Below are positions 10,704 to 33,706 of a stretch of DNA of 41,898 nt, piece by piece. Under the pieces are notes generated by a model. That model ran no database searches. It had not been told where the DNA came from and worked only from the letters and a program-made list of their open reading frames with translations. How positions within the stretch are numbered: position 1 is the stretch's first letter; each line of letters starts with the position of its first letter. Where the stretch lies: NCBI GenBank assembly GCA_028823415.1, contig JAPKBL010000036.1, positions 1-41,898 on the forward strand, read 5' to 3'. Source of the stretch: Mariniblastus sp. (GTDB lineage: Bacteria; Planctomycetota; Planctomycetia; Pirellulales; Pirellulaceae). A program made the translations under genes and the position numbers.

Positions 10704-13166
<2,463 letters not shown>

Positions 13167-30674: not shown

Positions 30675-31481
30675 TTGACCAACGACATTGACACCCATCG
30701 AGATGCTGAAATACAGGAACGCAAGTACGACGCGGTTGCCCCGGAGATCGTTGTGTCGATTGTGGTTCCATTCTTTAATGAATCTCAAACACTCGAGGCG
30801 TTAGTGAATCGCGTTGTCGAAAATCCGTTCTCTAAGGAAATTATCCTGGTCGATGACGGCAGCACAGATGATTCGCTCGCTATCGCTCAACGTCTCGCGG
30901 ATAAGCACATGACCTGCGTCAACGGGTTTGCCAATCGACTGGTCGTCAAGACTCATGAGACAAACATCGGGAAAGGTGCCGCGCTGAAGACAGGCTTGTT
31001 GAGTGTGAGCGGAGACATAATTGTTTTGCAGGATGCGGATCTGGAATATCATCCGGAAGAAATTTTGCAACTAATTCAACCGATCATTAATAATCAAGCG
31101 GATGTCGTATACGGTAGTCGGTTTATCAACGACGGCTCAGATAAAAACCGTAAACAGTCGTCCGGTTATTTTTCCAATTACATTGCTAATCAACTCATCA
31201 CTCGTTTCTCAAATTTGTTGACTGGCCTGAAACTGACCGATATCGAAACCGGCTATAAAGTATTCACCCAGGAAGTAAATCAGAAATTAGCACCAGCTTT
31301 AGTTAGCCGAAGTTTTGCTATCGAGCCGGAAATCACAGCGAGAGTCGCCAAACAAAAAGTGCGGGTTACCGAAGTGCCGATCAGTTACTCCAGTCGAACC
31401 TATCAAGAGGGGAAAAAGATCGGCTGGTGGGATGGGATCAAGGCGGTGCTGGCAATCCTTCGTTTTGCAGTGAGTGCCTAG
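30675..31481 (+). CDS. Family 2 glycosyltransferase, DPM1-like
   Basis: The 268-residue protein has one GT-A domain: VSIVVPFFNESQTLEALV, ILVDDGSTDDS, NIGKGAALKTGL, DADLEYHPEEI, VVYGSRF, and DIETGYKVF. These are typical of bacterial dolichol-phosphate mannose synthase-like enzymes that move a sugar from a nucleotide to a lipid carrier or related acceptor. There are no membrane segments. The start is a TTG at 30675 with GAGGG close upstream; the first 30 residues are not conserved in the family, so the real start may be further in. It converges with pheA, with stop codons overlapping by four bases. No transferase partner is next to it. Confidence 0.85.
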   Translation: MTNDIDTHRDAEIQERKYDAVAPEIVVSIVVPFFNESQTLEALVNRVVENPFSKEIILVDDGSTDDSLAIAQRLADKHMTCVNGFANRLVVKTHETNIGKGAALKTGLLSVSGDIIVLQDADLEYHPEEILQLIQPIINNQADVVYGSRFINDGSDKNRKQSSGYFSNYIANQLITRFSNLLTGLKLTDIETGYKVFTQEVNQKLAPALVSRSFAIEPEITARVAKQKVRVTEVPISYSSRTYQEGKKIGWWDGIKAVLAILRFAVSA

Positions 31482-33706
31482 AGAACCCTTTGGCTGGCTG
31501 GAAAACTGCCCAGTACCGTTAGATTTTTACAGTGGGCACGAGCCTCGCCAATGATCTGGGCGATCGCCGAATTGTCGCGGTGCCCTTGGGTATCTATGAA
31601 AAATGTGTAATCCCAGTTTTGTTTACGACTGGGGCGTTTTTCCAGATGTGTGAGGTTAATCGAGTTTCGCTTGAAGACCTCCAGTACATCCATCAATGCC
31701 CCCGATCGATCGGTTGTGGTGAACATGATAGAGGTTTTGTCGTTTCCAGAGATTAGCGTTTTGCTTTTCGATAGAATCAAAAATCGAGTCATATTACTTT
31801 GCCGATCTTCAATCGCTTCGAACAGCGGACGCAGGCCATAAATTTCACCCGCCAACGAAGAACCAATCGCAGCGACTCCGCAATCGGGATCGGCGTCGAT
31901 TTCAGCCTTCGCCTTCATGGTTGCCAAAGCCGTACTTTCAGTGGGCACGCGTATGGCTTGCGGGTACTGTGTGCTGAGCCAATTCCGACATTGCTCAAAG
32001 ACACCCGGTTTTGAATAGATCTTTTTAACTTGTTCCGGCTTGCAATTGGCAAGTAGACAGAACCGGATTTGAAATTTTACTTCACCGTAAATATTAAGTT
32101 GATCGTGAAGGTCGATGAAAGAGTCAAGCGTTTCATTGACACCGCCGACAGAACTACTTTCGACGGGCACTAATCCATAATCGATTTCACCGTTTACCAC
32201 TTGTTGAAAGACGGTGCGAATTTCACGCGCAGGAATAAAATGCACACTCGAACCAAAATGGCGCACGGCGGCAAGATGCGAAAATTCTCCTTCGGGCCCA
32301 AGGAAGCCGATGCTAAGCGGTTTCTCGATTGCAAAACTACCGCTCATCAATTCCCGATAGATAGATTCGAAAGTAGTATCGGTTAAGGGGCCGCAATTGA
32401 GAGATTTTATCTTATTGAGAACGGCGTGTTCGCGGTGGGGCGCATAAATTGGAACATCAGACTTCCGTTTAAAATCGCCAACCTTAACGACCAGGTTAGC
32501 TCGTTCGTTGACCAAATCAACGACACGCTTATCCATGGCATCAATGGCAGGCTCCAGTTCCTTCTGCGAGGAATATTGGTTGGAGATAATCTCTTTTTGA
32601 TAGCGGTAATTTTTGTCATAAATTGGAAAGCTACCAAGCACATAGAGGTTTTTGCAGTGGGCACGAACTTCACCTAGGATCTCCGCAATCTTTCCGTCGT
32701 TGGCATGTCCGAGGATATCAACGAAAAAGGTATAGTCACTTCCAGCTTCCCGACTGGGTCTCTTTTCGATGTGACTAAGGTTGATACTATATCGTTTGAA
32801 CACCGAAAGAATGTCAACCAATGATCCGGGCCGGTCGGAGCAGGTAAACATCAAGGACGCTTTGTCATTTCCGGTAGCCTCGGTTTCGCGTTTCGATAAA
32901 ATCAGAAAGCGAGTGACGTTGTTATTACAATCCTCGATGCCGTCGAATAGCGAATTCAACCCGTAGAGTTCACCGGCTTTGCTTGATCCAACGGCCACGA
33001 CTCCGTCAGACGGATTGGCAAGGTATGCGATTTCCGCCGCGCTGGCTGTGCTCTGGGTAGGAATCTGCTGGGCTTCGGGGTATTTGTCGGACAGCCATTG
33101 GCGGCATTGAGCCAGCGCCTCCCCTTTCGAGTAAATAACTTTGACGTTGTCCGGATCACATTTTCCCAGCAGGGAAAATTGAATCGCTAATCGGATTTCT
33201 CCGTAAATCGTCAGTCGGCCATGATAATCCGAAAATGAATCCAGTGTTTCGATAATTGCACCACCGGTGCTGTTCTCGATCGGGACGAGTCCGTAATCGA
33301 CATGGCCTCGAGCCACTTCTTCAAACACCCCTTCGAGTGCTCGGAGGTTTTCATAGTCCACCGTCGGTCCAAAAAACTTAGAAGCCGCAAGATGGCTGAA
33401 GGTTCCCTGAGGGCCAAGGTAGCCGACCCTGGTCGGCCGGCCTAATACAAAGGCACCATTGAGAATTTCCCGATAGGCGCCCTCGAGTGCCGAATTTGGG
33501 ATCGGACCTTTGTTCTTGGTGACTACATTACGTACCGCTTCCGCCTCAGAATGCTGATCGATTCCACGGGAACCCGTATTAGCCCGGTCGATCCGAGCTC
33601 GTTCAACCGCGAGTTTCGATCGATCGTTGATTAGCTGGACGAGTCGCTGGTCGACTTCATCGATTGCGGTTCGTAACTGTAGTAGTGTTTTATTGGTCGC
33701 AGGCAT
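31478..33706 (-). CDS. pheA: Tandem-duplicated PheA: (chorismate mutase-prephenate dehydratase-ACT) x2
   Basis: PheA makes phenylpyruvate from chorismate in two steps and is feedback-controlled by phenylalanine through an ACT domain. One usual protein is about 360 residues; this one is 742 and holds two full copies (1-372 and 373-742). Each has a chorismate mutase (CM) helix bundle, a prephenate dehydratase (PDT) domain beginning YLGPQGTFSHLAA or FLGPEGEFSHLAA, and ACT. The copies look roughly half identical by eye. Copy 1 CM keeps R12 and R29 but has D40 and H52 where E. coli CM has K39 and R51, and A85/G89 for S84/Q88. Copy 2 has E385 for R11 but keeps R402, K413, R425, E426, S457, E461. 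In PDT, copy 1 has VPIENS; copy 2 has VPVESS. Both keep TRF, YSK and QC. No clear ribosome site. Confidence 0.93.
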   Translation of the reverse strand: MPATNKTLLQLRTAIDEVDQRLVQLINDRSKLAVERARIDRANTGSRGIDQHSEAEAVRNVVTKNKGPIPNSALEGAYREILNGAFVLGRPTRVGYLGPQGTFSHLAASKFFGPTVDYENLRALEGVFEEVARGHVDYGLVPIENSTGGAIIETLDSFSDYHGRLTIYGEIRLAIQFSLLGKCDPDNVKVIYSKGEALAQCRQWLSDKYPEAQQIPTQSTASAAEIAYLANPSDGVVAVGSSKAGELYGLNSLFDGIEDCNNNVTRFLILSKRETEATGNDKASLMFTCSDRPGSLVDILSVFKRYSINLSHIEKRPSREAGSDYTFFVDILGHANDGKIAEILGEVRAHCKNLYVLGSFPIYDKNYRYQKEIISNQYSSQKELEPAIDAMDKRVVDLVNERANLVVKVGDFKRKSDVPIYAPHREHAVLNKIKSLNCGPLTDTTFESIYRELMSGSFAIEKPLSIGFLGPEGEFSHLAAVRHFGSSVHFIPAREIRTVFQQVVNGEIDYGLVPVESSSVGGVNETLDSFIDLHDQLNIYGEVKFQIRFCLLANCKPEQVKKIYSKPGVFEQCRNWLSTQYPQAIRVPTESTALATMKAKAEIDADPDCGVAAIGSSLAGEIYGLRPLFEAIEDRQSNMTRFLILSKSKTLISGNDKTSIMFTTTDRSGALMDVLEVFKRNSINLTHLEKRPSRKQNWDYTFFIDTQGHRDNSAIAQIIGEARAHCKNLTVLGSFPASQRVL

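Follow-up and report, generated by a model that had tools for sequence, protein, structure and literature searches.

A stretch of 41,898 nucleotides from Mariniblastus sp. (Planctomycetota, Pirellulaceae; assembly GCA_028823415.1, contig JAPKBL010000036.1), hereafter called the window, encodes a tandem P-protein, an enzyme of phenylalanine synthesis, in which the whole unit of chorismate mutase (CM), prephenate dehydratase (PDT) and ACT domains occurs twice in one chain. The full set of AroQ active-site residues is absent from either CM copy alone but is present when both copies are combined. We propose that the two CM domains, CM1 and CM2, form an asymmetric AroQ dimer in which one site is live and the other dead, a reading to which we give a probability of about 0.83; the pairing would probably take place inside a single chain. 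Both the pairing and the activity of the composite site are what we infer from the sequence comparisons presented here. In the live pocket, copy 2 would supply R402, K413, R425, E426, S457 and E461, and helix 1 of copy 1 would supply R12. The mirror pocket, made of the copy 1 pocket and helix 1 of copy 2, would be dead, with several of its cis residues and its trans arginine gone.

Organization of the tandem P-protein

The open reading frame and its doubled domain order were recovered as originally predicted, since Pfam assigned CM_2, PDT and ACT to two stretches each, and the order expected of a P-protein (CM_2, PDT, ACT) is thus found twice over. The features are as follows.

31478..33706, minus strand: tandem P-protein, 742 amino acids, CM1-PDT1-ACT1-CM2-PDT2-ACT2 (Pfam; relatives)
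33431..33706, minus strand: copy 1 CM domain, residues 1-92, N-terminal half of helix 1 kept and pocket decayed (CM_2 match, alignments)
32885..33427, minus strand: copy 1 PDT domain (profile match)
32666..32857, minus strand: copy 1 ACT domain, residues 284-347 (Pfam)
32321..32548, minus strand: copy 2 CM_2 match, pocket intact, the R11 position falling just upstream of the match (CM_2 match, alignments)
31760..32311, minus strand: copy 2 PDT domain (profile match)
31547..31744, minus strand: copy 2 ACT domain, residues about 655-720 (Pfam, alignment)

The linker between ACT1 and CM2 is roughly 20 residues long, as judged by eye. Relatives covering the whole length of the 742-residue protein were found at 10 loci of bacterial genomes (73-95% identity); from their frame length and N terminus, these loci appear to be ten of the same 12 tandem species described below, and they add no independent support. 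An assembly or frame artefact, either merged genes or a collapsed repeat, was considered and is refuted, because the doubled frame is open in 12 separate genomes of the genus and identity between the window's two copies is 49%, too low for a collapsed repeat.

Reciprocal loss of active-site residues

We mapped the residues of both CM copies with a MAFFT alignment to an E. coli CM domain reference that is identical to 1ecm at 109/109 residues. In the E. coli enzyme, one monomer is described as contributing R28, K39, D48, R51, E52 and Q88 to the active site, with R11 coming from its partner (PMC5526877), and this R11' is described as catalytically important (PMC12329711). The corresponding codons, all on the minus strand and placed by alignment, are listed below with their states in the 12 tandem species.

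33671..33673, minus strand: R12, equivalent to the trans catalytic arginine R11' of E. coli, 12/12 copy 1
33587..33589, minus strand: D40 at the K39 position, K in 1/12 tandem species, seven residue types
33548..33553, minus strand: H52-S53 aligned to R51 (register may be off by one), R in 0/12 copy 1
33452..33454, minus strand: A85 at the S84 position, S in 3/12 copy 1
33440..33442, minus strand: G89 at the Q88 position, G in 11 and A in 1 of 12 copy 1
32552..32554, minus strand: E385 at the R11 position, E 9, G 1, Q 1 and N 1 of 12 copy 2
32501..32503, minus strand: R402 (R28), 12/12 copy 2 and likewise 12/12 copy 1
32468..32470, minus strand: K413 (K39), 12/12 copy 2
32429..32434, minus strand: R425-E426 (R51, E52), 12/12 copy 2
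32336..32338, minus strand: S457 (S84), 12/12 copy 2
32324..32326, minus strand: E461 (Q88), 12/12 copy 2 and 29/29 intact single copies with E

This alignment confirmed that copy 1 retains the R11 equivalent (R12) and carries D40, A85 and G89 at the K39, S84 and Q88 positions, and that copy 2 has lost R11 (E385) and keeps R402, K413, R425, E426, S457 and E461. Two details of the original prediction had to be adjusted. It had placed H52 at the R51 position; the aligner, which adds one residue to the loop between helices 1 and 2 of copy 1, puts S53 there, and R51 is lost in either register. It had also called the complementation exact; the complementation is near-exact, since R28 is present in both copies (as R29 in copy 1). 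Glutamate at the Q88 position represents no change in copy 2, given that it occurs in 29/29 aligned intact singles. The D48 position is Ala in copy 2; because Ala is also found in 14/14 single-copy proteins of the genus, this is not a loss that followed the duplication.

Among 28 genomes of the genus, 12 carry the tandem, 14 a single normal P-protein, and two lack a proper CM_2 match (G161 has no match, and G162 only a broken, weak one). R11 is present in 12/12 copy 1 and 0/12 copy 2 sequences, and all seven residues (R11, R28, K39, R51, E52, S84, E88) are present in 14/14 genus singles. We extended the comparison to 29 singles, namely the 14 of the genus (all that were found) and 15 of the family; the latter were chosen from the top CM_2 scorers, so their sites are intact partly by selection, and one of the 29 (G133) lacks the N terminus, so R11 was scored in 28/28 singles with a letter at that position. 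Of 28 CM positions that are near-invariant in these singles, 12 were lost solely in copy 1 and 2 solely in copy 2, the latter two being R11 and a mild L-to-I change.

Opposite constraint on the two copies

We next compared conservation along the CM domain in non-redundant rows (8/12 copy 1, 7/12 copy 2, and 12/14 single sequences). Pairwise identity across helix 1 residues 7-28 was 0.71 in copy 1, 0.47 in copy 2 and 0.70 in the genus singles. The order was inverted in loop 42-48 (0.27, 1.00 and 0.73, respectively) and in helix 2 (0.37, 0.79 and 0.73). The half-to-half contrast (0.489; 8 copy 1, 8 copy 2, and 12 single non-redundant rows) was matched by 0/20,000 permutations and 0/82 circular shifts, figures that are descriptive only, since the rows share ancestry. 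The ratio of nonsynonymous to synonymous substitution rates (dN/dS) among eight close species showed the same crossover: 0.018 for residues 7-28 versus 0.143 for residues 29-65 in copy 1, and 0.053 versus 0.022 in copy 2. Selection on the two copies is therefore reciprocal, with copy 1 holding the N-terminal half of helix 1 while its pocket is relaxed, and copy 2 doing the opposite. An asymmetric pair predicts this pattern, since both copies should hold the part of the helix bundle that forms the live site and be relaxed at the opposite end.

These data also bear on the possibility that the copy 2 CM domains form homodimers that are active without R11, copy 1 CM being a decaying relic in which R12 persists by chance or for folding. 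In line with this, copy 2 has a good CM_2 score (69.2 bits) and contains all the cis residues, and some natural CMs work with altered sites, for instance MtCM, although MtCM keeps its trans Arg18 (PMC7762937). However, CM2:CM2 pairing would require the N-terminal half of copy 2 helix 1, which is the least conserved stretch of this domain, the contrary of what self-pairing would lead one to expect, and no conserved substitute arginine was seen by eye near position 11. Together with the behavior of R11 in decaying CM domains, presented below, this makes an active copy 2 homodimer unlikely.

Comparison with decayed CM domains

As a control for ordinary decay, we used the CM domains of untandemed PheA from the family, outside the genus (L037-L071; 35 loci in 34 genomes, G009 being represented twice, taken as the next five CM_2 loci plus the top 30 PDT loci). 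Here R11 was found in 3/34 genomes, in a column read from a gappy alignment in which the Q88 column is unreadable, and R11, K39 and R51 occurred together in 0/35 loci. Three of these genomes (G007, G064, G099) carry a second CM_2 gene as well. Ordinary decay thus tends to remove R11, yet the decayed copy 1 retains it in 12/12 species; the contrast with 3/34 favors the composite site and argues against copy 1 being a mere relic.

An AroH-type CM is present in 120/149 family genomes, in 30/34 of the genomes with a decayed PheA CM and in 0/15 of those with intact family singles, so that one CM type seems to replace the other across the family. This raised the possibility that both CM domains of the tandem protein are dead or regulatory and that CM activity comes from a missed enzyme, for which the wide occurrence of AroH, the decay of the PheA CM in the genomes read and two weak CM_1 matches in tandem genomes could speak. 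Nevertheless, no CM_1 match above the cut-off was found in the 28 genus genomes, and no other CM_2 match above it in the 12 tandem genomes. In the genome that contains the window, which is 92.7% complete, we found no further CM_2 match at E 1, no further PDT match at E 0.001, and no AroH-type CM_1 domain at E 1, Pfam giving CM_2 instead. No replacement CM enzyme is in sight in the tandem species. Moreover, the copy 2 pocket, which shows strong purifying selection (dN/dS 0.022) and has its six cis residues in 12/12 species, is unlike the decayed CMs. We therefore regard a missed enzyme as very unlikely.

Strength of the composite-site reading and topology of the pair

Several observations weigh against a composite site. 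The dN/dS contrast shrinks when all 12 species are included (0.142 versus 0.285 in copy 1, with helix 1 of copy 2 saturated), and the permutation and Fisher values overstate independence, because the 12 species share one duplication and the losses are few events. The copy 1 pocket is not wholly stripped: R28 is kept in 12/12 species, perhaps E52 as well (E54 in the window; E in 9/12 tandem species, the register being uncertain), and K39 is retained in copy 1 of G157. R28 may be merely structural, because 25/35 decayed loci keep it too. In 10/12 tandem genomes copy 1 still scores above the CM_2 family cut-off. The tandem genomes are incomplete (80-94%), and the weak CM_1 matches mentioned above are sub-threshold (E 0.08 in G159 and 0.09 in G119). 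Finally, the original prediction had suggested full-chain structure prediction as a means of locating R12, but the AlphaFold model (11 alignment rows) reached a mean predicted local distance difference test score (pLDDT) of 43.4 and a predicted template modeling score (pTM) of 0.30, too poor to place this residue. A model of the copy 1 module, built on 20 rows (the copies from 9 of the 10 full-length loci plus the window; L005 was omitted because its frame resembles that of L004), gave 55.4 and 0.36, respectively. Neither model is good enough to place R12; all that they show is helices 1, 2 and 3 following one another.

The joint site is strongly supported by the comparative evidence, and of the predicted intramolecular pseudo-dimer with one good and one dead site it is the single-chain pairing that is less firm. 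One sub-case of the composite site is a swapped dimer, in which CM1 of one chain pairs with CM2 of another and each dimer has two live sites; it predicts the same residues, and the structural model favors neither topology. The PDT-like protein GqqA is described as a dimer (PMC8192741), which agrees with such an arrangement. Conversely, covalent linkage of the two copies, with the short ACT1-CM2 linker, would make intramolecular pairing plausible. We hold the swapped dimer to be possible, though not probable.

A further suggestion concerns the dead pocket of copy 1. The positions equivalent to E. coli 37R and 69P (within copy 1 residues about 38-76) do not vary among the 8 non-redundant copy 1 rows but do so in copy 2 and in the singles; 72A and 75G are also invariant in copy 1. 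These positions raise the rather doubtful idea that the dead pocket has gained a constraint of its own and may be regulatory, in which case the genus would hold an intermediate between a homodimer and a single-chain pseudo-dimer.

Origin and distribution of the tandem

In a tree of the PDT and ACT regions, copy 1 sequences formed a single clade (100/100; stem 0.67). Without G144, the copy 2 sequences had a stem of 0.08 (84/46), and with G144 they formed one group only at 48/99. In a GyrB tree of 20/28 genus genomes (7 tandem, 11 single, and 2 without a P-protein match), the 7 available tandem genomes were on one side of a branch supported at 99/97, and with midpoint rooting they nested within the genus beside G153, G154 and G170. 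These results fit a single duplication followed by fast change of copy 1. We suggest that the unit was duplicated once, in frame and inside the genus, after which two originally equal sites would have lost their redundant halves.

The immediate neighborhood differs between tandem and single loci, because a glycosyltransferase gene lies just downstream in the flanks of 10/12 tandem loci and of 0/14 single loci, with flanks of similar length. In at least six tandem genomes (G000, which is the genome of the window, G150, G151, G157, G158 and G159) and three single genomes (G067, G153 and G165), a GyrB gene is located no more than ~30 kb away on the same contig. There are two GyrB-like genes, of about 820 and 640-660 amino acids (window 10710-13166 and G000 C173:17849-19741); at least two GyrB matches occur in 21/28 genus genomes, none of them above the family cut-off.

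Across 149 family genomes, two PDT matches within a frame of ~750 amino acids were found only in G000, G100, G119 and G144, all members of the genus. Among the matches listed for 392 genomes of the phylum, several genomes have two PDT matches.

PDT and ACT domains

We examined the residues T278, S208, Q215 and N160, which we take to be catalytic or substrate residues of PDT, along with E159 and E232 from PMC8192741, where E232 is said to matter for substrate binding. T278, S208 and E159 are conserved in 12/12 species in both copies. Q215 and N160 are each found in 12/12 copy 1 and 11/12 copy 2 sequences; for N160 it is the protein of the window that deviates, with S in its copy 2. At the E232 position, copy 1 always carries Q (0/12 kept), and 11/12 copy 2 sequences have E. 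In the copy 2 PDT, the S114 position is E in 12/12 species and the S163 position is V or I, where copy 1 and the singles have G. In the ACT domain, the W338 position (residue 323 in copy 1 of the window) has lost its tryptophan in 12/12 copy 1 sequences and retains it in 12/12 copy 2 sequences and 29/29 intact singles.

In the reciprocal-loss comparison, copy 1 alone has lost 5 and copy 2 alone 9 of 51 near-invariant PDT positions; for the 28 ACT positions, the corresponding figures are 3 and 2. PDT and ACT dN/dS values were similar in both copies (0.019-0.024, eight close species). For this reason we do not claim a live/dead split in either domain, despite the striking E232Q in copy 1 and E at the S114 position in copy 2. 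The strong constraint on both PDT and both ACT domains suggests that the two PDT domains may share a single CM site in this protein.

Two further observations were made in the course of these comparisons. At L112, L113 and L114 (G064, G041 and G099), a DAHP synthase domain apparently shares one frame with a CM-PDT-ACT unit (Pfam PF00793 on L113 only; L112 and L114 by eye), a fusion that would link the first step of aromatic synthesis to late ones. In the genome of the window, the C-terminal domain of prephenate dehydrogenase is matched at G000 C45:7540-7827, in a frame with an internal TAG.

Relation to known enzymes

In AroQ-beta enzymes, one live and one lost CM site lie within a duplicated CM. 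The yeast CM subunit reportedly resembles the E. coli dimer and has been proposed to derive from a duplicated CM, although a literature search for this duplication origin gave nothing; a regulatory role has been proposed for its dead site. The residues observed here fit this pattern of one live and one lost site, with the two domains putatively paired. A looser analogy is offered by the mammalian membrane adenylyl cyclases, whose C1 and C2 domains are two homologous domains per chain with one live and one degenerate site, in a protein of unrelated fold and function.

Each half of the tandem protein has the domain order of the E. coli P-protein PheA with its AroQ-alpha CM (1ECM), and the catalytic residues are the same, R11 acting across the dimer in E. 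coli (PMC5526877, PMC10520331); PheA, however, has one copy and forms a homodimer with two equal sites, whereas here there are two unequal copies per chain. CMs with the active site in a single chain are already described, namely AroQ-beta and AroQ-gamma (PMC10520331). AroQ-beta (yeast CM) is 12-helical, with a catalytic center per subunit and separate allosteric sites (PMC10520331, PMC7762937), but it is eukaryotic and lacks PDT and ACT, whereas the protein described here is bacterial, has whole CM-PDT-ACT units doubled and has two halves that are still recognizable. In AroQ-gamma, the exported CM of M. tuberculosis, four N-terminal helices of a six-helix protomer make the active site (PMC10520331); unlike the tandem P-protein, it is exported, has a disulfide and contains neither PDT nor ACT. 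Among the listed titles and opening abstract lines of the open-access literature surveyed, none mentions a tandem P-protein or this split of the CM site.

The best reading is that the tandem P-protein would work like a pseudo-dimeric CM, although it is a young and separate instance with AroQ-alpha as its basis. A symmetric enzyme pair appears to have turned lopsided in nature fairly recently, and each copy seems to need the other. The way in which symmetric enzyme dimers become asymmetric is for the most part deduced from ancient examples. In this genus, 12 species that have the split-site tandem can be compared with 14 congeners that have an intact single copy, which allows the transition to be mapped phylogenetically. 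Should both PDT domains be functional, a regulated branch-point enzyme would also have its CM-to-PDT site ratio altered.

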